Assembly (NCBI RefSeq): GCF_028290885.1
Contig: NZ_JAQGIZ010000002.1
Location: forward strand, 1-40,709
Length of the DNA stretch: 40,709 nt
Origin: Phenylobacterium sp.
GTDB taxonomy: Bacteria; Pseudomonadota; Alphaproteobacteria; Caulobacterales; Caulobacteraceae
Direction of reading: 5' to 3'
Below the pieces are notes generated by a model that was not told where the DNA came from, made no database searches, and saw only the letters and a list, made by a program, of their open reading frames with translations. The translations under genes were made by a program, and so were the position numbers. Below, in pieces: positions 11,821-22,653 of this stretch (positions within the stretch are counted from its first letter, which is position 1; the number at the start of each line of letters is the position of its first letter).

Positions 11821-12606
11821 CTAGGCGCCCGCAAGCCGAGCGTGCGTGTCATACCAATCGGGCCGCATCCCCAGGCCCCACGCGAGGCTTCGGACCGGTC
11901 CGCTGAAGATGGGATCGTCGCCCACCAGGGCGTAGGTCACGAAGATGGGCTTGTAGGCCTCGATCGCCTGCCCGGCTGAGAGCCACTTGCCGGGTGCATC
12001 CTCGCCGAACTGGCCGCTGGAGCCCCGCGGGAAGGTGTGGTCGAGCCCCTTGCAGCTCTGCTTCGGGACCTTTTCCTGGGACACCACCTTGAAGCGGTCA
12101 TAGCCGAGCGACGTGAGGACATCGAACTCTCGGCGCAGGCCCTTGAAGGAGTCCTTCTCGGACTCGATGGAGACATACAAAGGGCGATCCCGCGCGGCGC
12201 GGAGCCCCTCGACGCCGACCATGTCGAACCCTTCGATGTCAAACTTGGCGTAGTAGGGCACGCCGAATTCCGCAGTCAGCGCCTCGATGGTGGTCGCCTC
12301 GACGGTCATGGGTTGGTTGGGGACGCCCATCCGCGCATTGCGCTCGGCCCACAGCGGGTCGATCGTGCCCCACGCGCTTCTCTCGCTGCGATAGAAGGTG
12401 ACCTCGCCCGGCTGAGTGGCGACGGCCTTGTTGACCAGCGTTAGCCGCCCGTCCTCGATCGGACCTCGAAGCCGTTCGCGAGCCTCGCTGCAAAGCTCGC
12501 GATTGGCCTCGACGCCGATGACCCGAAAGCCCTTCTTCAGATAAAATTCGGCGTCCTCTCCTTTGTGGAAGCCGACATCGAAGATCAGGTCCTGGCGCAC
12601 GGCCAT
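11821..12606 (-). CDS. FkbM-type SAM-dependent methyltransferase
   Basis: A 261-residue class I methyltransferase. The S-adenosylmethionine-binding glycine motif is FDVGFHKGEDAEFYL, followed by VIGVEAN (acidic ribose-binding residue) and the FkbM hallmark VEATTIEAL...YAKFDIEGFD near residues 105-135. FkbM-type enzymes O-methylate sugars, polyketides and other secondary products. The frame is open further upstream, but the conserved domain begins right after the ATG at 12606, and the longer N terminus is low-complexity Arg/Pro/Ser. A TGA of an upstream small membrane ORF ends five bases before this start, so the two may be coupled. It lies at the downstream end of the envelope locus; a surface glycan target is a guess. 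Confidence 0.82.
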   Translation of the reverse strand: MAVRQDLIFDVGFHKGEDAEFYLKKGFRVIGVEANRELCSEARERLRGPIEDGRLTLVNKAVATQPGEVTFYRSERSAWGTIDPLWAERNARMGVPNQPMTVEATTIEALTAEFGVPYYAKFDIEGFDMVGVEGLRAARDRPLYVSIESEKDSFKGLRREFDVLTSLGYDRFKVVSQEKVPKQSCKGLDHTFPRGSSGQFGEDAPGKWLSAGQAIEAYKPIFVTYALVGDDPIFSGPVRSLAWGLGMRPDWYDTHARLAGA

Positions 12607-12610
12607 CCCG

Positions 12611-12838
12611 TCACCCGGTACGAGACCGAAGGACCGCCCGCGTGGCATGCGCGACAATGACCAGGCCAAGCGGCGCGAGAGCCGCCAGGGTGACCGGCAC
12701 GGCGTACCAGGGGGGCGTGGCGCGGGTAACGAGATATGCCGCCCAGATGACTGCGATCTCCGCTGCAATGGTCAGGGAGGCGCTGGTGCAAAGGAGCCAG
12801 ATCTCCCCGTTCGTCGGCGTCACATCACCTTCGCGCAT
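12611..12838 (-). CDS. Small two-span membrane protein (putative)
   Basis: A 75-residue candidate gene on the same strand as, and immediately before, the FkbM gene. It contains two clear hydrophobic segments: about residues 14-38 (IWLLCTSASLTIAAEIAVIW) and 44-64 (VPVTLAALAPLGLVIVAHA), with a basic end (RAVLRSRTG). ATG at 12838 is chosen; a TTG six codons upstream is possible, and neither has a strong ribosome-binding site. The stop is five bases from the next start, which supports a real gene. No family is recognised. Confidence 0.5.
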   Translation of the reverse strand: MREGDVTPTNGEIWLLCTSASLTIAAEIAVIWAAYLVTRATPPWYAVPVTLAALAPLGLVIVAHATRAVLRSRTG

Positions 12839-12907
12839 CGCTTGAACCTGGGCCAAGCGGTTTTGCAGCGCAAGGCGGGCGACCGATGATCAGCGATGGA
12901 CCGGGCT

Positions 12908-14011
12908 TCAATGGAACCGGATCGGCACTGAGACCTGCAGCGCATAGTCCGGCGCATCGCGCGTCAGGCCTACCCCGAGCGACACGTCCAGCAGCACGTT
13001 TCGCGTCAGCACGCGGGCCACGCCCAGCTCCAGGGTCGCGGCAAGGGTGTCGGTGCCAGGCGCCCCCACGCGATCGATGCTGGCGCGGCCCCGGAACTCC
13101 TGGGCCACGCCGAAGGTGAACGAGGTCTCAGGGCTCACCGCCAGCACCGTCCCCAACTCGAGGCCGATGGCGTCGCCGGGCTGAAAAGCGCCGAACGCCT
13201 GGTGAACGGCCTGGTCACGCGCGTAGGAAAGCGTCCCGAAGAACACCAGCGGATCGCTGCTCTTCACGGCCGTCACGCGGGCGCGGAATTCCGGAACACC
13301 CGAGCCGGTGGCCACCGCGGCCAGCTGACTGCGGAAGGGGTCGTGTCCGGTGGTGAAGCGCCAGGAGACGCCGCCCACCAGATCGGGCCACCACCCGGAC
13401 TCGCGCAGGAACTGGTGGCTGAACGCCACCTCGACGTCGCCCGCGCCGGAGTCCTCGTTGACGGCATGGGTGCCGTCTCCGAGGGTTCGAGATTGGCGCA
13501 GCCAGGCGTAGGGCGCCCGCACCTCGATCTGGCTCGACCAAGGCAAGCCCACGCGCAGCGCCGCCGTGGCCCGCACCTGGTCCTGCCGCAGGCGCTGGTC
13601 GGCGACGGTCGGGATGCCCTCAGGCGTCTGGGCCAGAGCCAGGCCCTGCACCTCGCGGTTGCTGTAGGCGAAGCTCGGCACCAGCTCCATGCGCCACGGC
13701 GGCAAGACCAGGCCGCCGCGCTGGACCAAGGTCCGTGAAAGCGCCTGGAGCTCCGCCTCGTCCTCGCCGGCCGGCGAGGACGAGGCCCCGGGTGCGGGCG
13801 GCGATGTCGTTGCGGGGGCCGGGACCAAGGACGGGACCGAGGACGGAATCGCGGCGCGTTCGTGCTCCAGGGTTTCGACGCGTCGCTCCAAGGCGGCGAT
13901 CACCTGATCGCGGGACTTCAACGCTTCGATCAATTCCTCCCGGGTGAGCGGCTGGGCCTGGGCGGATCCCGCCGCGAGCGCCGCCGAGGTCGCCAGCAGC
14001 ATGAGCTTCAT
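12908..14011 (-). CDS. FapF-like outer-membrane barrel with N-terminal coiled coil
   Basis: A 367-residue exported barrel protein. Residues 1-19 are a signal peptide (AQA). Residues 21-53 form a coiled coil (LTREELIEALKSRDQVIAALERRVETLEHE), residues 54-85 a Pro/Ser linker, and about 95-367 a run of amphipathic strands ending in PIRFH, as expected of an outer-membrane barrel. This layout, coiled-coil plug, linker and barrel, is that of FapF, the export pore of the functional amyloid in Pseudomonas, and the preceding coupled gene encodes a FapD-like C39 protease. The barrel also resembles the MetA-pathway (phenol degradation) transporter family, to which such proteins are often assigned. Start ATG at 14011 has GGGAGG upstream and overlaps the protease stop (ATGA). 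Confidence 0.7.
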   Translation of the reverse strand: MKLMLLATSAALAAGSAQAQPLTREELIEALKSRDQVIAALERRVETLEHERAAIPSSVPSLVPAPATTSPPAPGASSSPAGEDEAELQALSRTLVQRGGLVLPPWRMELVPSFAYSNREVQGLALAQTPEGIPTVADQRLRQDQVRATAALRVGLPWSSQIEVRAPYAWLRQSRTLGDGTHAVNEDSGAGDVEVAFSHQFLRESGWWPDLVGGVSWRFTTGHDPFRSQLAAVATGSGVPEFRARVTAVKSSDPLVFFGTLSYARDQAVHQAFGAFQPGDAIGLELGTVLAVSPETSFTFGVAQEFRGRASIDRVGAPGTDTLAATLELGVARVLTRNVLLDVSLGVGLTRDAPDYALQVSVPIRFH

Positions 14012-14694
14012 GACGCGCCTCCCGCAGTCCGAAGCGCAGAGTCCGCAGCGCGCAGAGCCGGTCCTGGAGGCGTCAGAAACAGTTCTGCGGGTGCTCCCAT
14101 GCGGTTCGGCGGGTGCGGATCGTCGGAACGGTAGAGCACGAAGCCAATTCGGCTGGTCCAGGCCTGCATGAACGCCTCCATGGTCATCGTGCGATTGCCG
14201 AAGGCCGGGTCGCCCAACAGCAACCTGTCTCCACGCCGGCCACGGACGACCACGAAATGCCCGAAGCCGTACACCCGGATCGGGGCCACGGCGGGCGCCA
14301 TCGCGACCAGCTCGTCCAGAGTGAGATTGGCGTAGCCGGCGGCGGCGAACCCGCGGCTCGCCGCGAACCGCTTCAGATCAAGCAGCGAAAAGCCCAGGCG
14401 GGCGCGCACCAGGCGGATATCGCTTGTCCGCAACATGCCGCGCGCCGCCTGTCGCTCGCTCACCGGATCGCCGAGCTGGAAGGTCAGCAGGGTCGCGACG
14501 GCGGCGGCCCCGCACGTGAGGTCCCAGTGCTGACGCACCAGCTTGTCGTCACGCAGCTCAAGCAGGCTGCGGACCGGCTTGGCGTCCGGTGCGGCATGGT
14601 CGGGCGCGGCGCGGATCTGAGGTGCGAGTGTGAGCACAAACAGCGCCGCGCCGGCCCAGGCCAAGCGACACGCGCCCGGGTCCTTGAGGCTCAC
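14008..14694 (-). CDS. FapD-like periplasmic C39 cysteine protease
   Basis: A 228-residue exported peptidase of the C39 (bacteriocin-processing) fold. The active site is visible: Gln55 (oxyanion hole) and Cys61 in VRQHWDLTCGAAAVATLL, His146 in GFGHFVVVRG, Asp162 in GDPAFGNRTM. The GFSLLDLKRFAASRGF helix is characteristic of the FapD branch. There is no ABC transporter domain, and a signal anchor or peptide covers residues about 10-29, so it acts outside the cytoplasm. FapD is the protease of the Pseudomonas functional-amyloid operon. C39 enzymes cut after Gly-Gly or Gly-Ala type leaders. Start is GTG at 14694; the gene follows the TIGR03118 stop by ten bases and overlaps the FapF-like start, so all three are likely one transcript. 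Confidence 0.75.
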   Translation of the reverse strand: MSLKDPGACRLAWAGAALFVLTLAPQIRAAPDHAAPDAKPVRSLLELRDDKLVRQHWDLTCGAAAVATLLTFQLGDPVSERQAARGMLRTSDIRLVRARLGFSLLDLKRFAASRGFAAAGYANLTLDELVAMAPAVAPIRVYGFGHFVVVRGRRGDRLLLGDPAFGNRTMTMEAFMQAWTSRIGFVLYRSDDPHPPNRMGAPAELFLTPPGPALRAADSALRTAGGAS

Positions 14695-14703
14695 AGCAGG
14701 GCC

Positions 14704-15822
14704 TCAGTGCGGCCGCATCTCGGTCATGCGCACCATCTCGTCGGCCGCCCAGGTGGTCGGAGCCGCCCCGATCGAGCCCACCAGACCATGGCTCTCATCG
14801 GCGGGGCCGGCCGAGAAGGTGATCGTGCCGGCCGGCCCGGTCCGCAGCGCCCACAGCCCGTCGATCTCGACGCGGTTCTGGTCGTCCCTCAGGACGCCGA
14901 TGTAGTTGCCGGTGGTCGGGTCGTAGGCGTTGATGCGGCCGTCGCCGAAGTTGCCGACCAGCAGGGCGCCGGCGAACTTGCCGAAGGTCGCCGGCGCGAT
15001 CGCCAGCCCCCAAGGCGCGTTCAGTTGGCCGTGCTGCGCCAGGCGGCGCACCAGATGGCCGTCCGTGTTGAACACGTCGACGAAGCCGAGCCCTTGTCCG
15101 GCGGTTTCGTCGGTGGCCCCCGGCTCCCGCTTGGCGAAGGTCACGTAGAGCTGACCGTTCAGGTTCTGCACGTTGAAGGGCGCATAGTTGGGCGGCAGGT
15201 TGGGGTCGGTGAAGCTGCCGACCTTGTTGAAGCCGGCGTCGTAGATGCTGACCACGCCGTGGGCGAAATCGGTGGCGTAGAGGCGGGGCGAGGTCCCGCT
15301 CATGCCAAGCGTCAGGCCCTTGAACACAGCGCCGCTGGCCGACTCGTCCACCCCCACGACAGCATGGGTGGCGTCCACTGTTGGATTCCAACCGAGGATC
15401 TGCCCGCCTTCCGTGGCGAAGGCGAACAGGGTGCGGCCGGTGTTGGCGCCCTCGGTGATGTTGAAGGCGCCGGTGATCCCGATAAAGGTGGTGCCGGTCG
15501 GCCCGCCGGGCACGGTCACAGTGAGCCCCACCTTGGCGAAGGTGTCCTTGTCGTAGAGCGTCGAGGTGTCGGTGCCGTTGTTGGCCACCCACAACGGCGA
15601 GCCGGGCGCCTGTGACAGACCCCAGGCGTTGACCAGCAGGGGATCGGTGACCGGGGCCACGCCGCTCAAATCCGCCACCTGATTGGTGACCGTGAACCGC
15701 AGGCCCGCCGCGACGGCGTCCAGTTGGGCATCCGTCAGTGGGATGGGCGCGCTCGAGGCCGGGGATGTGAGCATGCCCGCGGCGACAGCGATCGCGGCGG
15801 CGCTTCCCAGGAGACGCAACAT
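14704..15822 (-). CDS. TIGR03118-family exported beta-propeller protein with leader-like motif
   Basis: A 372-residue exported protein of the TIGR03118 family, a group of unknown function seen partly in PEP-CTERM species; no PEP-CTERM tail is present here. Residues 1-24 are a Sec signal. Directly after it, residues 28-40 read PLTDAQLDAVAAG, which looks like the C39-type leader consensus (L-[ST]-x-x-E/Q-L-x-x-V-x-[GA]-G). The rest shows repeated strand-turn units with propeller-like motifs (LWVANNGTDT, GRTLFAFATEGGQILGWNP, YDPTTGNYIGVL). GGAGGG precedes the ATG at 15822. The coupled downstream C39 protease makes this protein its natural candidate substrate. That link is inference. Confidence 0.78.
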   Translation of the reverse strand: MLRLLGSAAAIAVAAGMLTSPASSAPIPLTDAQLDAVAAGLRFTVTNQVADLSGVAPVTDPLLVNAWGLSQAPGSPLWVANNGTDTSTLYDKDTFAKVGLTVTVPGGPTGTTFIGITGAFNITEGANTGRTLFAFATEGGQILGWNPTVDATHAVVGVDESASGAVFKGLTLGMSGTSPRLYATDFAHGVVSIYDAGFNKVGSFTDPNLPPNYAPFNVQNLNGQLYVTFAKREPGATDETAGQGLGFVDVFNTDGHLVRRLAQHGQLNAPWGLAIAPATFGKFAGALLVGNFGDGRINAYDPTTGNYIGVLRDDQNRVEIDGLWALRTGPAGTITFSAGPADESHGLVGSIGAAPTTWAADEMVRMTEMRPH

Positions 15823-15930
15823 CGTTCCCTCCTTCGCATGGCCGAGCCGGGCGCCCGGCGAATAAGGGTAAATTGCCGCTCGCGCGCCGGGCGTTCAAAG
15901 CGCGCGCAAGAATTAGTTGAAGGCCTGGCT

Positions 15931-16701
15931 TCAGAAGGCCTTGGTGACGCCGAACACCAGGGCCTCCCTGCTGTGCCGGTCGGCGCCATCCCGGTCCGTG
16001 TCGGGCCCGACCCCAGTCACGGCCAGCTGCAGGTTCAGTCCTTTGAACTGGGTGGCAAGGCCAATTCGCCAATCGTAAAGCGTTCGCTGAAGCCCCGGCC
16101 GTCGGGAGCCGTTCAGGGCAGTGAGCATGCCGAGGCGCCCGGTCAGTCGCCAGTCCCGCGCAGGCTGAATGACGCCCTCGACTTCCCCGTAGAGGGTTTG
16201 CAAGGGGTATCCGAAATATCTAGGAGAATAATATAGATGCGTCGAAAAATGGCGAGTGATCAATCCAGCATAGATTTGGCCATAATCCGTTTCAGAATGT
16301 CCGACGTAATATTCTGAATAATTCGAGTGTGTCAGCCCAACGTCTGCCGTCAATCCCGTGTTCAAGCGGCGAGCGTAGCCGGCGTATTCCTGAAAACCGA
16401 GAATGCGCAACCCCGAGTGGGCCGTGGCGACGCCGACGACGGATGCGCCAAGATATGCCCCGCTTGCATGATCGTATGACGCGGCGACGTCCAACACTGG
16501 CCGGTCCCCGCTCAAGGAAATGCCGCGGAATCTGTAGTCGGATAGGAGCGACAGGCTCGCGCCAACCTCTGCATAGGCCGGCGCCGCGAGGCCCAGGGCC
16601 AGCGCGGCGAAGACCGCTTCCGCTGCGAGGCGGCGCCCGCCGACCAGACTATGGGCGTGCGATCGACAGTTCTCCGCGGGCGAAGGCGCACGTACAGTCA
16701 C
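15931..16701 (-). CDS. TorF-type putative porin
   Basis: A 256-residue outer-membrane barrel of the TorF/TIGR02001 putative-porin type. After a long N terminus (signal core about residues 25-44, AYA cleavage) comes the hallmark EVGASLSLLSDYRFRGISLSGDRPVLD, then alternating amphipathic strands and a closing LVFGVTKAF. The start is GTG at 16701, overlapping the end of the S8 protease gene by 53 bases; no later in-frame ATG fits before the signal core. The stretch coding residues about 124-165 uses many codons rare in this genome (AAT, TAT, AGA, CTA), unlike the rest of the gene. The family has no established substrate. Confidence 0.75.
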   Translation of the reverse strand: MTVRAPSPAENCRSHAHSLVGGRRLAAEAVFAALALGLAAPAYAEVGASLSLLSDYRFRGISLSGDRPVLDVAASYDHASGAYLGASVVGVATAHSGLRILGFQEYAGYARRLNTGLTADVGLTHSNYSEYYVGHSETDYGQIYAGLITRHFSTHLYYSPRYFGYPLQTLYGEVEGVIQPARDWRLTGRLGMLTALNGSRRPGLQRTLYDWRIGLATQFKGLNLQLAVTGVGPDTDRDGADRHSREALVFGVTKAF

Positions 16702-17905
16702 AGGGCTTGGACGATCGCAGGAGGGTGCCGCACGCGTCGATCACTCCACCGCCGGGGCGCGCCGACACCAGCGACAGCGAGCCTTCGGCGGCCCTGCGGT
16801 GCTCGCGCAACAGGGCGAGAAGTCCGCTGACGTGCGCCGCCGAATAGGAGCTGCCATTGACGAGAGACCACCGTCCACCCGGCTGCGTGGTGGGCACGTC
16901 GCGCCCCGGCGCAATGTAGACGCCGGGCGGCAGCGCTGCCAGCGACTCGTCGGACACCGCGATCACGCCCGGCTGGGAGGCCGGAAATCCGCCATGGGGG
17001 AGGTCGCGATCGAACGCCGCCACCACGGTGCTTCCGCGGTCGAGGGCGATCGTGAGAAGCTTGCTCAGCAAGGGGTCGGGCGGGCCACTGAGGCTCAGAT
17101 TGACCACCTGCGCCTTCTGATCGATGGCGAAATGCAGCGCCATGGCCAGGCTCAGGCTGTTGCAGACGGTGGCGACCGCTCCAGCCTCGGTCACCTGCCA
17201 GCAGGCACGCAGAGCCATTAGCCGGGCGTGGGGCGCGACACCGACTATGCCTAGGCCGTTGTCGGCCCTCGCGGCGATGATGCCGGCCACGCCGGTCCCG
17301 TGTTGCTCCGCGGCGGTGGGGCGCCCGGCGACGAAGTCCTCGCGACTAATCACCTGGCCTATGAGGTCGGGATGGTCGCTTTCGACCATGCTGTCGATCA
17401 CCGCGACCACGACGCCGCGGCCGGTCGCAAGCTGGTGCAGGTCCGCCAGGCGCCAGGCATGGGCGGCAGGCTGGGCGCGGAACAGCGGGTCGCTGTGCGC
17501 AGGCGCAGGTCCTCGCGCGCGATAGACATGCATCGGCTGGGACCAGGCGACGTTGCGATCCTGCGAGACGAGCGCGGCGACCTCTTCCGCCGACTGACCG
17601 GCAGGCACGGACATGATGAAGCAGTCCAGTCCCAGGAGGGGCATGGGCCAGTCGTCGACGATGGTGAGGCTATGGTCGCGCGCGATCTGACCGGCCAGCC
17701 GCTTTCGGCTACTGCGCGACAGGACGTCGCCGTAACCGCCGCCATAGTCAGAGTTCGGACGATAGTGCGCCGGCGATTGCCTCAGGAGAACCAGCACCTC
17801 TTCACGGGAATCTGGAGGTGGCTGCGCGCCGGCTGTGCAGGCCCAGGCGAGGCCCAGCCATAGGCAGAGCAAGAAGCCAAGCCTTCGGCCGGAGCGACGC
17901 CTCAT
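16649..17905 (-). CDS. S8 (subtilisin-type) serine protease, exported
   Basis: A 418-residue exported protease. The signal peptide covers residues 1-27 (AGA|QPPP). Residues about 35-125 form an I9-like propeptide (VLVLLRQSP...LLGLDCFIMSVPAGQSAEEVAAL). The catalytic domain shows Asp in VVAVIDSMVESDHPDL, His in EQHGTGVAGIIAA and Ser in VNGSSYSAAHVSGLLALL. In place of the usual AAGN oxyanion-hole motif there is VVAAFDRDLPHGGFPAS, with Asp where Asn is expected. The C terminus has a Cys-rich tail (CGTLLRSSKPCDCTC). Its ATG overlaps the anti-sigma stop (ATGA), so it is the third gene of a sigma/anti-sigma/protease operon. Whether it acts on the anti-sigma factor or on a surface substrate is unknown. 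Confidence 0.85.
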   Translation of the reverse strand: MRRRSGRRLGFLLCLWLGLAWACTAGAQPPPDSREEVLVLLRQSPAHYRPNSDYGGGYGDVLSRSSRKRLAGQIARDHSLTIVDDWPMPLLGLDCFIMSVPAGQSAEEVAALVSQDRNVAWSQPMHVYRARGPAPAHSDPLFRAQPAAHAWRLADLHQLATGRGVVVAVIDSMVESDHPDLIGQVISREDFVAGRPTAAEQHGTGVAGIIAARADNGLGIVGVAPHARLMALRACWQVTEAGAVATVCNSLSLAMALHFAIDQKAQVVNLSLSGPPDPLLSKLLTIALDRGSTVVAAFDRDLPHGGFPASQPGVIAVSDESLAALPPGVYIAPGRDVPTTQPGGRWSLVNGSSYSAAHVSGLLALLREHRRAAEGSLSLVSARPGGGVIDACGTLLRSSKPCDCTCAFARGELSIARP

Positions 17906-18543
17906 TGGACCTCCCCAGGGTCGATCGGCTCGGCCAGCACGACGTCGGCGTCACCGCGCAGCCTGGTCAAGGCCGCGGGCCGTTCCGCGGCGGGGACGCT
18001 GAGCACATAGGCGTCAGCGGCGGTGGGGCCGCCAACCAGGCGCGCGCCGGAGGCTCGCAGGATTTGGCGCAAATCCCGTTCGCTGGCGTCCGGGCGGAAG
18101 ATGACCATCACATTGCCGGCCGGCGCAGGCGCAACGGTCCCAAGTGCGCGGTAGGGCGCCGGCCTGGCGAAGGGCAACAAAAGCGCGCCCACGACCAGCA
18201 CCGCGGCGATCTGAGCCGCCAACACCCAGCCGAGACTCGCGCGCCGGCCAAGCCTGCGCCAGAGCCGCGCGACGGCCGCAGCGGCGCGGGAGCGGCCGGT
18301 CGAGGCCCCCCGCAGACGCCGGCGAAACTGCGCCCAGTCCTGCTCAACACCCAGGGGCAGGCCGGCGACATCGGCGTCGAGATGTCGCTCGAGCGACAGC
18401 TCGGCCTGGCACTCGGCGCAATCGGCGAGGTGGGCTTCCACCCGCGCGAGATCGGCCGCGTCCAGCTGATCGGTCACGTACCAGGGCAGCAGCGTCTGGA
18501 CTTCCCGGTGGCGGTCGAGGTTCAGGCGAATGATGCTGGCCAT
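17902..18543 (-). CDS. Membrane anti-sigma factor with zinc motif and propeptide-like outer domain
   Basis: A 213-residue single-span protein. The N-terminal cytoplasmic part has a ZAS-type H-x3-C-x2-C motif (H38, C42, C45 in HLADCAECQ), which binds zinc and holds an ECF sigma factor. One membrane segment spans about 104-126 (LGWVLAAQIAAVLVVGALLL). The periplasmic residues 143-208 (VMVIFRPDASERDLRQIL...AYVLSVPAAERPAALTRL...VVLAEP) resemble the propeptide or inhibitor domain found in front of S8 proteases. It starts ten bases after the sigma gene and overlaps the S8 protease start. The anti-sigma role is well supported by motif and position; the function of the outer domain is inference. Confidence 0.82.
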   Translation of the reverse strand: MASIIRLNLDRHREVQTLLPWYVTDQLDAADLARVEAHLADCAECQAELSLERHLDADVAGLPLGVEQDWAQFRRRLRGASTGRSRAAAAVARLWRRLGRRASLGWVLAAQIAAVLVVGALLLPFARPAPYRALGTVAPAPAGNVMVIFRPDASERDLRQILRASGARLVGGPTAADAYVLSVPAAERPAALTRLRGDADVVLAEPIDPGEVQ

Positions 18544-18553
18544 CGTCGCGACC

Positions 18554-19153
18554 TCACAACCAGTCCGACAGGCCGCCGGTCAGCATGCGCTTGAGGTGGC
18601 GCCTCGCGTGAAACATGCGGGTCTTCACCGTATCGACGGGGCACTCCATGATCTCGGCGATCTCGCGATAGCCGATCTCATGAAAATAGGTGAGGTCCAC
18701 GACCGCGCGGTGATCTGGCGAAAGCTGCCGCATCGCCTTCAACAGCACCTCCTGCACTTGCCGACCGCCGACCTCCTGCTCGGGACCAGCATCGGCGCTG
18801 GCTCGGATTTCGGGGTGCTTGTCTTCCAGGGGCTCGTCCTGGCGCTGCAGCGCCTTGAGCGCCTTGCGGTAGGCGATGGCGAAGATCCAGGTCGAGAGCT
18901 TGCTCGCGCCGTTATACCTGTCGGGCCGGTTCCACACGACCAGCATGGTGTCATTGAGGACTTCCTCCACCAGGTTCGGCCGGTGGATCAGGTTGATCAG
19001 AAAGCGGGTCAGGCGAGGGTGGTAGTCCCGATATAGCCTCTCGAACGCGCGCAGGTCGCGCGCGCGGACACGGGCGATCAGTTGAGCTTCCTCGTCCCGA
19101 CCAGACCGCGCAGGCGCTCGGTCCCGCTCGCTTGCGACGCCTTGCCCACGCAC
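18554..19153 (-). CDS. ECF-type RNA polymerase sigma factor
   Basis: A 199-residue sigma-70 family ECF factor. Region 2 covers about residues 35-105, with FERLYRDYHPRLTRFLINLI, VEEVLNDTMLVVWNRPDRYNG and STWIFAIAYRKALKAL (core binding and -10 recognition). Region 4 lies at about 130-190 (LSPDHRAVVDLTYFHEIGYREIAEIMECPVDTVKTRMFHARRHLK), a helix-turn-helix for the -35 box. The start is GTG at 19153 with GGGAGG upstream. It heads the sigma/anti-sigma/S8-protease operon. A TGAACC-N17-CACTAAC motif upstream, repeated before the cytochrome operon, suggests autoregulation. The ECF subgroup is not assigned. Confidence 0.9.
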   Translation of the reverse strand: MRGQGVASERDRAPARSGRDEEAQLIARVRARDLRAFERLYRDYHPRLTRFLINLIHRPNLVEEVLNDTMLVVWNRPDRYNGASKLSTWIFAIAYRKALKALQRQDEPLEDKHPEIRASADAGPEQEVGGRQVQEVLLKAMRQLSPDHRAVVDLTYFHEIGYREIAEIMECPVDTVKTRMFHARRHLKRMLTGGLSDWL

Positions 19154-19179
19154 TATCGCCTCCCTGTGGGGGTCGCGGT

Positions 19180-19209
19180 GTTAGTGCCTTCAGCCGCCGA
19201 AAAGGTTCA
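19180..19209 (-). promoter_or_regulatory. Predicted ECF promoter of the sigma-factor operon
   Basis: On the minus strand TGAACC (19209-19204) and CACTAAC (19186-19180) are 17 bases apart. An equal motif with the same spacing occurs at 21271-21300. Position, 27 bases before the sigma GTG, fits an autoregulated ECF promoter. Confidence 0.6.
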
Positions 19210-19268
19210 TTGCAGTCGCGACCAACTTCCCTGTGCGCAGCTTACCGCGCCGGGATGGGCCGAACCGA

Positions 19269-19661
19269 TCACTTCAGCGTTTCGAGATAGGCGATGAGGT
19301 CGTTCAACTGGGTCGGATTCTTCAGGCCAGGATAGGTCATCTTCACGTTCGGCAGATACCGCCGCGGCGCGGGCAGGTAGGCCCGCAATTGATCCGCGGT
19401 CCAAACGAAGCCGGCGGCCTTCATCGTGGACGAATAGGAGAAGTCGGGTATCGACCCCGCCTTGCGGCCGACGACGCCGTACAGCGGCGGACCCACCACG
19501 ACCCCCCCGTTGCGGGTGTTGGAATGGCAAATACTGCATTGGCTCCCGAAAACGGCCTGTCCGCGCGCGGCGTCCGCGGCCGTAGCCGAGCCCGTGAAGG
19601 CTCCGACGTCGCCGAGCACGCCCGCGACGCCCGCCGCGAGGATGGCTAGAAGGCGAGCCAT
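19269..19661 (-). CDS. Periplasmic class I cytochrome c
   Basis: A 130-residue exported monohaem cytochrome c. Signal residues 1-29 (ATA|AD). The haem-binding motif is C42-S-I-C45-H46, and the likely axial Met108 lies in NVKMTYPGL. Spacing and size (about 100 mature residues, GPPLYGVVGRKAG and FSYSSTMKAAG in between) are those of soluble cytochrome c of the mitochondrial/c2 group. It carries electrons between periplasmic partners. Its start overlaps the stop of the Cyc2-like gene by 16 bases, so the two are coupled and the small cytochrome is the natural electron partner of that outer-membrane protein. Confidence 0.9.
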   Translation of the reverse strand: MARLLAILAAGVAGVLGDVGAFTGSATAADAARGQAVFGSQCSICHSNTRNGGVVVGPPLYGVVGRKAGSIPDFSYSSTMKAAGFVWTADQLRAYLPAPRRYLPNVKMTYPGLKNPTQLNDLIAYLETLK

Positions 19662-21007
19662 GTGAATAACCTCAGGGTGTCGTTGTCAGAAGCGTTGCGC
19701 CCCGATCCGTCGAAGTTGCGGGCGGCCCCGTCGAACTGCAGGTAGTGCGTATACTGAACGCCAACCCGCAGATTGATCCGGCGGGCCGGTTGCGAGCCGC
19801 CGCCAAAGGGGGTCCCATCGACCTGGAACACCAGCCCCGAGCTGTTGGGCCGAAGGGTGCGATTGTCCGCATGGAGGACCGGATTGGCCGAGCCGAAGGT
19901 ATCGAACGCGCCCGCCGTGACCCCAATCTGGTTTCGCCAGTAGTAGGAGGCGTCGAGGCGCAGATCGTCGAGGTCGTTGCGCGCGCAGTCCGACTCCGAA
20001 GAGCCCGCCAGGCTGCACGTCGCGTCCAGCCTTTGACGCTCGTGGATGTAGCGCCCGTTGAGCGTCACCACGTCGTGGTTGGACAAGGCCCGATAATACG
20101 AGGCGTCCAGCCCCAGATCGGTATAGCGGTCGACGAGGGCGCTGGTTCGGTCCCGACCCGGGTGGATGTCCGCGCGCAGGCCGAAGGCGCCGACCTCCAC
20201 GGTGCCGCCCCCGAGCTTCTTTTGAAACGCGACGCGCCCATAGGGCGCGAGACCATTGAGGTCGCCGGGGTCCGCCGGATCGACACCTAATCGCCTGAGA
20301 GCGCTCGCGCCGACTGAGCCGTATGCGCCCCCTTCGAGATAGAATTCGGAATTGATCCAGGCGTAGCCGGTGACCCCCAACGTGTTCTGGGCCAGCGCCC
20401 CGGACAGCAAGGGCGAGGTGGACGGCGAGGGGGCTAGCGCCGAGTCCGTGTAAGGGAAGCCCCAGGCTGGAAGCGTGTTCCACGGGTCCTGGACGCCCGG
20501 CGAGTTGTTAAGACTGAGCCCGAGGACCACGTCGGTGTTCTTCACCTGGGTGGCGGTGGTGAGGCGCAGGTCGAGATTGTCCCAGGCGAAGGCCTTGGCG
20601 ACCCCGTCGTAGGTCGCCTGCACGAAGGCCCCCACGTGCTGGCCGAAACCCCCGGCGAAGAACAGGCTCAGCTGATCGAGGGCGAAGTTGTCGTTGGTCC
20701 TGAATCCGTCGGCCGGCGGCTCGGCCTGGGCCTTCGCGGTCCGCACGTAGGAGGCGATCGCCATGGCCGCCAGCGGCACGTTGAAGTTCGTCGCCCGTTG
20801 CGTGTAGCCCGTGAGCTTGAAGTCGCGGCCATAGGGCGTCAGCTGCGGCCCGAAACCGCCCACATGGCACATCTGGCAGGGCTGCCCCGTCTGAACTGCG
20901 AACGCCGGGACGGCTCGCGCCGGCGTGCCTGCAAATACAAGCACCGTCAGGCACAACGCCGCGCAGGCCGCGGGGCCAAGGGCCAGGCGGAGGTTGGCCA
21001 TCCTCAT
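19646..21007 (-). CDS. Cyc2-like fused monohaem cytochrome-porin
   Basis: A 453-residue exported protein. After a signal peptide (residues 1-32, ARA) the mature N terminus reads VPAFAVQTGQPCQMCHVGG, with one haem site C44-Q-M-C47-H48, followed by FGPQLTPYGRDFKLTGY. The rest is rich in amphipathic strands and ends LRLFTWLAF, as in an outer-membrane barrel of about 16 strands. A short N-terminal haem domain fused to a porin is the layout of Cyc2, the outer-membrane iron oxidase, and the PAFA-QTG-CxxCH-x-PxLTPxGRxFKLxGY pattern agrees. Many homologues in non-iron-oxidising proteobacteria are uncharacterised, so iron oxidation is not claimed. ATG at 21007 has GAGG upstream. Coupled to cytochrome c. 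Confidence 0.72.
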   Translation of the reverse strand: MRMANLRLALGPAACAALCLTVLVFAGTPARAVPAFAVQTGQPCQMCHVGGFGPQLTPYGRDFKLTGYTQRATNFNVPLAAMAIASYVRTAKAQAEPPADGFRTNDNFALDQLSLFFAGGFGQHVGAFVQATYDGVAKAFAWDNLDLRLTTATQVKNTDVVLGLSLNNSPGVQDPWNTLPAWGFPYTDSALAPSPSTSPLLSGALAQNTLGVTGYAWINSEFYLEGGAYGSVGASALRRLGVDPADPGDLNGLAPYGRVAFQKKLGGGTVEVGAFGLRADIHPGRDRTSALVDRYTDLGLDASYYRALSNHDVVTLNGRYIHERQRLDATCSLAGSSESDCARNDLDDLRLDASYYWRNQIGVTAGAFDTFGSANPVLHADNRTLRPNSSGLVFQVDGTPFGGGSQPARRINLRVGVQYTHYLQFDGAARNFDGSGRNASDNDTLRLFTWLAF

Positions 21008-21270
21008 CGTGACCTCGCTCGTGGGTGCGACTGTCGTCCGTCATGTCCGTGGACCGGACCGACGGCGCGACGAAGGCGGTCTATTGGAGCGGAGGCGCTG
21101 GATCAGTCACTATCGCGCGCGCGCACGCGACCGCGTTGCTCTATGCGAGACAGTCATTCGTGCGCGCCTGCGAGTATGACCTGGCATCTGCGCCGCGCTC
21201 CGTTCGGAAACGCTACCTTCGTTGTTCGTGAATTCTCATCGGCGTGATGTCGGCTCCTCTCCTCTTGCCC

Positions 21271-21300
21271 GTTAGTGCCGCCGCGCCGCGAAGAGGTTCA
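21271..21300 (-). promoter_or_regulatory. Predicted ECF promoter of the cytochrome operon
   Basis: TGAACC (21300-21295) and CACTAAC (21277-21271) on the minus strand, 17 bases apart, identical in both boxes and spacing to the site before the ECF sigma gene. Transcription would run to the Cyc2-like gene with a long leader. Confidence 0.55.
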
Positions 21301-21317
21301 ATTGAAAACCGTCATCT

Positions 21318-21343
21318 CCGGCTTGGCGCGTCCGCCAAGCCGG
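21318..21343 (-). terminator. Strong hairpin after the thiolase gene
   Basis: A perfect 11-bp inverted repeat (CCGGCTTGGCG / CGCCAAGCCGG) with a four-base loop. It lies about 60 bases beyond the normal thiolase stop at 21404, the right place for its terminator. The frameshifted frame reads through it. Confidence 0.55.
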
Positions 21344-21403
21344 GCAACGGGAGCGCTGTGCAGCGCGCCCCACCGGGGCGGCTGGGGGGGCCAACGCTCG
21401 GAC

Positions 21404-22653
21404 TTAGATCCGCTCGATGATGATCGCAGGCGCCATGCCGCCGGCGCGCACATGGTGACGAGGCCGCGCTTGAGGTCCCGGCGTTCGAGCTCGTCGAGGA
21501 CCGTGCCGATGAGCATCGAACCGGTGGCGCCGATGGGATGGCCCAGCGCCATGGCGCCGCCGTTGACGTTGACCTTTTCGCGGTCGAGCCCGAGGTCGCG
21601 GATGAACTTTTCGGCGACTACCGCGAAGGCCTCGTTGATCTCCCAAAGGTCGATGTCCTCGACGGTCAGGCCGGCCTTGGCCAGCACCTTGCGCGCCGCG
21701 GGGACCGGGGCGTTGAGCATCAGGGTCGGGCTGTCGCCGACGTTGGCCATGGCGACCACTCGGGCGCGGGCCTTGAGGCCGTGCCTGGCCGCGTAGCCGG
21801 GCGAGGCCAGCAGCACCGCGCCGGCGCCGTCCACCACGCCCGAGGAATTGCCGGCATGGTGGAAGTGCTGGATCTTCAGGTCCGGATAGACCTGGTTGAT
21901 CAGGCCGGCGAAGGTGGTTCCCTTGTCGTCCAGCGGCACATTGGCCATGGCTTCGAACGAGGGCTTCAGCGCCGACAGGCCCTCCAGCGTGGTTTGCGGG
22001 CGGGGGAATTCCTCGCGGTCGAGGGCGATGGAGCCGTCCTCGCGGTACACCGCCACCAGCGACTTGTCGAAGTGACCGTTGCGGATGGCGTGGTCGGCGC
22101 GCTGCTGGCTGAGCAGGGCAAGCTCGTCCAGCGCCTCGCGTGAAATCCCTTCCATCGTGGCGATGGCGTCGGCGCAGACGCCCTGGTGCGACTGCGGGTG
22201 CTTGGCGCGCAGGGAAAGGTTGCCGCTATCCATCAGCATCGGGCCGGCGTTGGGGTCGCGGGGCGGGGCGCTGGAGGCGGTGTAGGACATCATCTCGGTG
22301 CCGCCGCCGATCACCAGGTCTTCCATGCCCGACATGATCTGCGCCGCGGCCAGGTTCACCGCGGTGATGCCGGAGCCGCAGTAGCGGTCGAGGGTGACGC
22401 CTGAGGCGCGCACGTCGTAGCCGGCGTCGAGGGCCGCCATCCGGCCGAGGTCGCCGCCCTGCTTGCCGCGCTGGGAGGAGGTGCCCCAGATGATGTCGTC
22501 GACCTCGGCGGTGTTCAGGTTGTTCCGCTCGGCCAGCGCCTTGAGGACGGTGGCGCCGAGGTGCTGGGGATGGTGGTCGGCGAGGGCGCCCTTGCCGACC
22601 TTGCCGATCCCACGAGGCGTGCGGGCGGCGTCAATGATGAGGGCTTCGGGCAT
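21404..22653 (-). CDS. Acetyl-CoA C-acyltransferase (thiolase), frameshifted near the C terminus
   Basis: A thiolase of about 415 residues that would cleave or form 3-ketoacyl-CoA in beta-oxidation or ketogenesis. Start is ATG at 22653 with AGGA upstream. The nucleophilic Cys92 is in LDRYCGSGITAVN, a middle HHAGNSSGVVDGAGA loop is intact, and the catalytic His is in NGGAMALGHPIGATGS. The last motif should read TMCAxGGMAPAIIIERI and stop at 21404. In this sequence one base is missing near 21446, so the reading frame changes right after the second active-site Cys and runs on to 21298 with a 49-residue unrelated tail. The coordinates given are those of the repaired gene. The shift is either a sequencing error or a real inactivating mutation. 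Confidence 0.8.

Follow-up and report, generated by a model that had tools for sequence, protein, structure and literature searches.

What joins an outer-membrane cytochrome, a protease and a pair of export-like proteins to one sigma factor in a Phenylobacterium genome? The question is raised by eleven minus-strand genes within a 40,709-nucleotide stretch of DNA (contig NZ_JAQGIZ010000002.1, positions 1 to 40,709; hereafter the window), which the original prediction took for a single envelope locus linked to an extracytoplasmic function (ECF) sigma factor. The open-frame listing gives these genes in the order stated there. The core of the locus is a module of four genes encoding the ECF sigma factor, its anti-sigma factor, a subtilisin-like protease of family S8 and a TorF family porin, because these four recur elsewhere without the remaining genes. 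The most surprising part is the anti-sigma factor, which ends in a domain resembling a subtilisin prodomain and is accompanied by a dedicated subtilisin. The features of the module are as follows.

18554..19153 (-), ECF sigma factor, 199 aa (PF08281, 3.3e-14; PF04542)
17902..18543 (-), anti-sigma factor with a zf-HC2 front (7.7e-9), one hydrophobic helix and a prodomain-like end
17905..18120 (-), subtilisin-prodomain-like domain of the anti-sigma factor, residues 142-213
16649..17905 (-), subtilisin-like protease of family S8 that carries a prodomain of its own (PF00082, 1e-23; triad D171, H202, S353)
15931..16701 (-), putative porin of the TorF family; the start is uncertain (TIGR02001, 80.5 bits against a cut-off of 47)

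The sigma factor contains ECF regions 2 and 4, and its partner combines a zf-HC2-type domain with a hydrophobic helix (residues 104-126) that reads by eye as a membrane span, as in ECF sigma/membrane anti-sigma pairs. When 119 related genomes were searched with the anti-sigma factor, seven including the window's own gave a match. S8 and TorF genes adjoin all six of the other matches, and a similar ECF gene lies upstream on the same strand in five; at the sixth locus, L014, the ECF gene is divergently transcribed and its product is only 30% identical to that of the window. No match to Cyc2, cytochrome c, TIGR03118, C39 or FapF-like proteins was found in these six stretches at 1e-4. When an alignment of 59 anti-sigma factors was used to scan named genomes, in a search that relied on one peptide pattern and was not exhaustive (P. 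hankyongense, discussed below, is absent from it), 46 loci were located, five of them contigs of the 119-genome search. The S8 gene lies directly downstream of the anti-sigma gene in all 46, the ECF gene upstream in 45 (the exception, L092, starts at the end of its stretch), and TorF is present in 44 (not in L062 and L064). Within these 46 stretches, several of which are cut by contig ends, TIGR03118 was found in two, Cyc2 in one and C39 or FapF-like proteins in none. The hosts include Caulobacter, Phenylobacterium, Asticcacaulis, Sphingomonas, Sphingobium, Novosphingobium, Dyella, Rudaea, Rhodanobacter, Pseudoduganella and Undibacterium, among others, which we take to represent alpha-, beta- and gammaproteobacteria.

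The end of the anti-sigma factor was modelled by AlphaFold as a beta-alpha-beta-beta-alpha-beta domain (residues 144-207) behind the single hydrophobic helix, and this domain can be superposed on the subtilisin prosegment fold. In the structural comparison (VIA), the four highest Z values (8.2-8.6) belong to subtilisin prosegments or pro-subtilisin E; the alignment with 1spb_P reaches residue 213, the last of the anti-sigma factor, opposite prosegment residue 76, and the POIA1 structures 1itp and 1v5i are also among the matches. In sequence, the end matches the Fervidolysin_NPro-like prodomain family PF22148 (E 0.0013, 19.5 bits), as do 35 of the 59 anti-sigma relatives at E 0.01, the best with 5.3e-8, and profile comparison with hhalign aligns it to the N-terminal domain of the S8 proteases (E 1.2e-4, probability 54.6). 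Several observations weigh against the assignment. Other ferredoxin-like entries reach a Z of 8.0 and Foldseek returned no match at E<=0.001, so that the fold alone is indecisive; the window protein misses the curated PF22148 cut-off (19.5 against 21 bits), and the family is reported for some of its relatives but not for L014 or for L180, a remote ECF-anti-sigma-S8 set read by eye. Nor does the pairing seem to be unique: in three of 17 other loci (L174, L183 and L188) an S8 match has an anti-sigma or ECF gene nearby with no prodomain end to be seen. Searching 385 genomes with P0121 gave matches in 17, its own genome included, mostly through the generic anti-sigma front half. At L183 and L188 the S8 genes stand near anti-sigma factors in which no prodomain-like end is seen by eye, hinting at further protease/anti-sigma pairings.

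Among seven aligned anti-sigma factors, 18 of 20 invariant columns fall in residues 131-208, a clustering to which L014 contributes, its front half being different and truncated in that alignment. The prodomain-like end also occurs behind differing front halves (by eye), and L014 has retained its S8 gene despite having another ECF sigma factor and another front half of the anti-sigma factor. On balance, the prodomain-like end appears to go with the S8 protease and not with any particular ECF sigma factor. The protease itself is that of an S8 subtilase, with the catalytic Asp, His and Ser intact in all 47 aligned sequences. Its model has an N-terminal domain of the same topology as the anti-sigma end and, in structural comparison, is closest to pro-subtilisin E. 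Three cysteines (Cys95, Cys235 and Cys248), one of which lies in the protease's own prodomain, are invariant in the 47 sequences, and a redox switch acting through Cys95 was weighed as a possibility; a C-terminal CxCxC proved not to be general (16 of 46 relatives).

Which genes the sigma factor may control was approached through a promoter motif learnt from 44 of the 46 loci, namely those with an ECF upstream region (L071 and L092 left out); the window was outside the training set. TGAAC[CT] occurs within 180 nt upstream of the ECF gene in 44 of 44 loci, and a second box was fitted at the same spacing in 43, by a fit that penalises other spacings. In the window, position weight matrix (PWM) scores single out two sites, one before the ECF gene and the other before a Cyc2-like gene that is followed by a cytochrome c gene; the best of 20 shuffles scored 21.3.

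21272..21302 (-), predicted ECF-type promoter before Cyc2, TGAACC-N17-CACTAA (perfect pattern match; PWM 29.3)
19181..19211 (-), predicted autoregulatory ECF promoter (perfect pattern match; PWM 25.8)
15864..15899 (-), weak promoter-like site before the TIGR03118 gene (PWM 12.8, within the shuffle range)
19646..21007 (-), Cyc2-like fused cytochrome-porin, 453 aa, with a single CxxCH near its start (open frame)
19269..19661 (-), cytochrome c, 130 aa (PF00034, 2.2e-10)

The 4.0-Mb window genome contains two perfect copies of TGAACC-N17-CACTAA and one with a mismatch; the reversed control motif gave four matches at up to one mismatch. Because the only two perfect copies precede the ECF and Cyc2 genes, joint regulation is predicted, and for these two genes we hold it, on the strength of the motif, with considerable confidence. 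Across the collection, 84 matches scoring above 17 were found in 543 kb of module stretches, 39 of them training sites by score; the 286 kb of stretches that lack the module gave no such match. L014, with its other ECF, gave no match. Cyc2 is also present in four genomes where the anti-sigma factor was not found; the four closest Cyc2 homologue loci from such genomes (more distant paralogues L033 and L034 left out) contain no match above 17, one reaching 15.6.

Second motif sites at module loci lie, for example, before a PEPxxWA-CTERM protein, before the TIGR03118 genes of L054 and L059, before frames that look cupredoxin-like by eye and, in L090, before a cytochrome-c-like frame (weak, 8.3e-4). 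One cupredoxin case is clear from a script search and the others were read by eye, the frame of L072 having no NCBIfam match. The predicted regulon thus appears to be rich in exported electron carriers, which is a reading of examples and not a count. The pattern search gave two matches at module loci for each of the genomes G013, G040 and G069, and a single such match for G017. A conserved exported protein with a D.TGDFL-like motif stands behind a motif match beside the ECF module in ten loci (L052, L056, L058, L060, L061, L068, L069, L073, L082 and L093), that of L052 with PEPxxWA-CTERM. Two perfect copies are remote from the module, one ahead of a sodium:dicarboxylate-symporter-like frame (G040:C57:58908) and the other ahead of a short exported-looking frame (G013:C158:27185). 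Many one-mismatch matches in G017, G009 and G013 were rejected as promoters because they have the appearance of a dispersed repeat, TTGAACCACGAAG..CACGAA.

How might the protease reach the sigma factor? Since the anti-sigma end looks like a subtilisin inhibitor domain, the S8 protease is predicted to dock on it, and we regard this docking as probable from the sequence and model comparisons. Mature S8, rid of its own prodomain, would bind the prodomain-like bait in the periplasm. Because subtilisins digest their own prodomains, digestion of the bait could act as the site-1 cleavage and be followed by ordinary intramembrane proteolysis. The freed sigma factor would then raise S8, anti-sigma and TorF levels and, in this Phenylobacterium lineage, also those of the Cyc2-like conduit and cytochrome c through the shared motif. 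Taken as a whole, this scheme of a prodomain-bait anti-sigma factor, S8 docking and degradation, and sigma release onto its own and the Cyc2-cytochrome c operons is the best explanation we can offer, and we lean towards it. For its sign, namely that cleavage activates, the case is evenly poised.

The reverse sign is unlikely but coherent. Bound S8, itself inactive, would protect the anti-sigma factor; substrates would draw S8 off, another protease, DegS for example, would cut the anti-sigma factor, and the sigma factor would make more S8, so that the circuit would gauge protease capacity. Prodomains are product-like inhibitors, the anti-sigma factor ends about where the prosegment ends, and an operon encoding the protease itself suits control by supply and demand; yet the digestion of prodomains by subtilisins fits activation as well, and no result favours the reverse sign over activation by cleavage. 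A further alternative, which we judge very unlikely, takes the anti-sigma end for a generic ferredoxin-like sensor of another ligand, with S8 merely a member of the regulon and the likeness to prodomains a matter of shared fold. The near-equal scores of ferredoxin-like domains of other function, the sub-threshold Pfam match of the window protein and the S8 genes that can be found near other anti-sigma factors would all suit such a sensor. They are set against a subtilisin-prodomain sequence profile that matches more than half of the anti-sigma relatives and an S8 gene that is next door at every one of the 46 loci and kept in L014 despite a different front half and ECF.

Docking on a prodomain-like bait would set the system apart from known circuits. 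Like RpoE-RseA-DegS and SigW-RsiW, it comprises an ECF sigma factor, a single-pass anti-sigma factor (with a zf-HC2 front, as RsiW-like) and an autoregulated operon, with a proteolytic trigger that we infer here. The ligand of DegS is an outer-membrane protein. Whereas those circuits include proteases such as DegS, an HtrA-family PDZ protease (PMC8103513), the periplasmic part in the window resembles a subtilisin prodomain and the operon holds a dedicated subtilisin. Stand-alone propeptide-like inhibitors such as POIA1 and the malaria-parasite inhibitor of SUB1 (PMC6993865) likewise offer a prodomain-like domain that acts in trans on a subtilisin, as is predicted for the window; unlike them, the window domain forms the periplasmic half of a protein that regulates transcription. 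Among the papers listed by the literature search, none concerned a prodomain-bearing anti-sigma factor, though the large ECF reclassification paper may have an entry.

Beyond the module, the locus continues with three genes whose products appear to be connected with export.

14704..15822 (-), TIGR03118 family protein, described as a propeller in the original prediction (323.7 bits against a cut-off of 79.95)
15703..15738 (-), double-glycine-type leader LTDAQLDAVAAG, directly behind the Sec signal of the TIGR03118 protein (from the sequence)
14008..14694 (-), C39 peptidase, FapD/FilB-like (PF03412, 8.9e-12; FapD profile 2.1e-28, under its cut-off)
12908..14011 (-), FapF/FilC-like coiled-coil barrel (FapF profile 3.5e-16, under its cut-off)

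In Phenylobacterium hankyongense, locus L160 has Cyc2, cytochrome c, ECF, anti-sigma, S8, TorF, TIGR03118, C39 and FapF-like genes in the order of the window and on one strand. Local alignments gave protein identities, from Cyc2 to the FapF-like barrel, of 73.9, 66.7, 74.6, 50.5, 68.1, 47.2, 72.9, 86.0 and 72.7%. Nucleotide similarity with this 19-kb stretch is confined to window positions 12907-15902 and 16510-20926, and the proteins that flank the block in the window have no match there. That a second species keeps this order between other flanking genes, with proteins 47-86% identical, indicates that the nine-gene block is more than chance. The promoter sites recur as well: L160 scores 28.9 before the ECF gene, 24.8 before Cyc2 (at 15702(-)) and 16.9, more weakly, before TIGR03118 (at 10361(-)), with one further site elsewhere (19.3). 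The Cyc2-like conduit, the protease circuit and the Fap-like pair of the predicted ECF-linked locus are thus found together in P. hankyongense, whereas its last two genes are not among them. The block joins a probable outer-membrane channel for electrons and a probable export pair for proteins to an ECF switch; joint regulation of all nine genes is predicted, not demonstrated.

The Cyc2-like protein contains one CxxCH in 453 aa, in keeping with the FeGenie definition of a heme motif and at least 375 aa (PMC7005843). As in the Cyc2 conduits of iron oxidation, an N-terminal CxxCH is fused to a porin-length chain with a cytochrome c partner, and at L059, where the order is ECF-anti-sigma-S8-TorF-TIGR03118-Iro-like-Cyc2, an Iro-type protein is encoded (53 bits, under the cut-off of 100); unlike in those systems, the window gene lies behind a predicted ECF promoter.

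TIGR03118 is present at E 1e-60 in three of 101 genomes of the genus and, in a separate survey of the class, in 11 of 385 sampled genomes, both counts including the window's own. A loose leader pattern occurs in 100 of the 120 closest homologues among the matches listed. Its presence follows the export pair: the leader is found in all three loci with an adjacent C39/FapF-like pair (the window, L160 and L159, a second TIGR03118-C39-FapF-like unit standing alone elsewhere in P. hankyongense; two genomes) and in none of 13 TIGR03118 loci without the pair (11 from the class survey, L059 and L161). In this count the N-terminus of L142 was judged by pattern only, and L145 was scored as lacking C39, its weak 46-residue match (1.5e-4) lying on the opposite strand in the Cyc2-like stretch; L054, L141, L147 and L150 were left out because their sequences end too soon behind TIGR03118, and all four are without the leader. 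This co-occurrence makes TIGR03118 the likely cargo of the C39 peptidase, a reading of the leader sequences that we favour over its alternatives without great assurance. C39 would cut the protein behind LTDAQLDAVAAG, and the FapF-like barrel may carry it to the surface to serve the Cyc2 conduit. We infer docking, the direction of control, export and electron transfer. Three of the 14 TIGR03118 loci outside the window (L144, L145 and L151) lie beside Cyc2-like frames, two with a cytochrome c match. They belong to two other alphaproteobacterial families, so that TIGR03118 and Cyc2 may be partners more generally; the literature search listed no paper treating the two together.

The C39/barrel pair had been called Fap-like. 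Its resemblance to FapD and FapF is borne out, but membership in Fap was rejected on the scores (C39, 99 against 330 bits for FapD; barrel, 59 against 700 bits for FapF), and none of the ten proteins of the locus that were scanned with NCBIfam was named as a FapB or FapC amyloid subunit, FkbM having been scanned with Pfam only. The window thus shares with Fap export and FilB/FilC a C39 peptidase beside a coiled-coil barrel and double-glycine-type leaders, and differs from them in falling far under the FapD, FapF, FilB and FilC cut-offs and in its likely cargo. FapF-like matches were found in 12 other genomes, of which 11 loci were examined (L035-L045, from relatives in the same taxonomic order; G118 left out): a C39 match lies near the FapF-like gene in ten and an ECF-like match is present in eight. 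Of six clusters read, five encode amyloid-like repeat proteins, and GG-type leaders can be recognised there by eye. The window-type C39 is present at E<=1e-30 in five of 299 genomes of the order, its own included. Of the three further loci, L168 has C39 and a FapF-like gene with no TIGR03118 match, L169 looks Fap-like, and L170, on a short contig, shows C39 alone.

These relatives lend some colour to the idea that the pair serves, like its counterparts in true Fap systems, to export an amyloid whose gene lies elsewhere, and that the TIGR03118 leader is unrelated: both proteins match the Fap profiles, the related clusters combine amyloid-like repeats with similar leader motifs, and the pair of L168 stands without TIGR03118. 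We nevertheless consider it improbable, given how far both proteins fall under the cut-offs, that no amyloid-like frame is among those listed around the units of L159 and L160, and that leader and pair go together. Also to be weighed is whether the block has any functional unity, or whether the ECF module, the Cyc2 pair and the TIGR03118-C39-FapF-like unit are together in two related species by descent only. The original prediction itself named independent occurrence of the subgroups, with no joint regulation, as the finding that would speak against it, and every subgroup does occur apart; on the second half, the promoters argue for joint regulation. The block has been kept while its flanks differ, each of the two species has the motif ahead of ECF as well as Cyc2, no motif match exceeds 17 at the four closest Cyc2 homologue loci from genomes where the anti-sigma factor was not found, and TIGR03118 adjoins Cyc2-like frames at three other loci and is near one in L059. 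Shared descent as the whole explanation is therefore, in our judgement, most improbable.

The two remaining genes fall outside the conserved block.

12611..12856 (-), small membrane protein, outside the conserved block (open frame)
11821..12768 (-), FkbM methyltransferase, outside the conserved block, start uncertain (PF05050, 6e-10)

Neither gave a tblastn match in the 19-kb stretch of L160, and they were ruled out as members, so that the proposed unity of eleven genes does not extend to them. The protein families were otherwise as first named, by Pfam and NCBIfam, except that neither Pfam nor NCBIfam gave a model for the Cyc2-like frame and the small protein gave no informative match in the NCBIfam scan, the only one it received. 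The tight junctions also noted at the outset are real, seven of ten overlapping or lying within 10 bp. Overlaps are 16 bp (Cyc2/cytochrome c), 4 bp (anti-sigma/S8) and 4 bp (C39/FapF-like), up to 53 bp for S8/TorF, where the start is uncertain, and of uncertain start again for the small protein/FkbM; short gaps separate TIGR03118 from C39 (9 bp) and ECF from anti-sigma (10 bp), and wider ones cytochrome c from ECF (115 bp), TorF from TIGR03118 (108 bp) and the FapF-like gene from the small protein (51 bp). Upstream of the Cyc2 promoter, an acetyl-CoA acetyltransferase-like frame (21298-21650) seems by eye to be frame-shifted near its end, the usual C-terminal residues continuing in another frame.

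The prodomain-like anti-sigma end, the promoter motif and the leader peptide go beyond what was originally predicted. Put together, they suggest, as a tentative proposal that we would not yet back against the alternatives, a new class of anti-sigma factor that senses a protease directly: a periplasmic prodomain bait, through which a dedicated subtilisin would set the expression of surface electron-transfer proteins, in a regulon that in one Phenylobacterium lineage would have absorbed a C39/FapF-type exporter presenting TIGR03118, not an amyloid, beside Cyc2. Many ECF systems have no known signal, and a prodomain-like sensing end would name partner and trigger together, for a pairing with S8 that is present at no fewer than 46 located loci. 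The motif supplies a ready-made regulon prediction, TIGR03118 is a likely non-amyloid cargo for a Fap-type export pair, and the locus makes a Cyc2-type conduit accessible through its regulation in an organism that is not a classical iron oxidiser.

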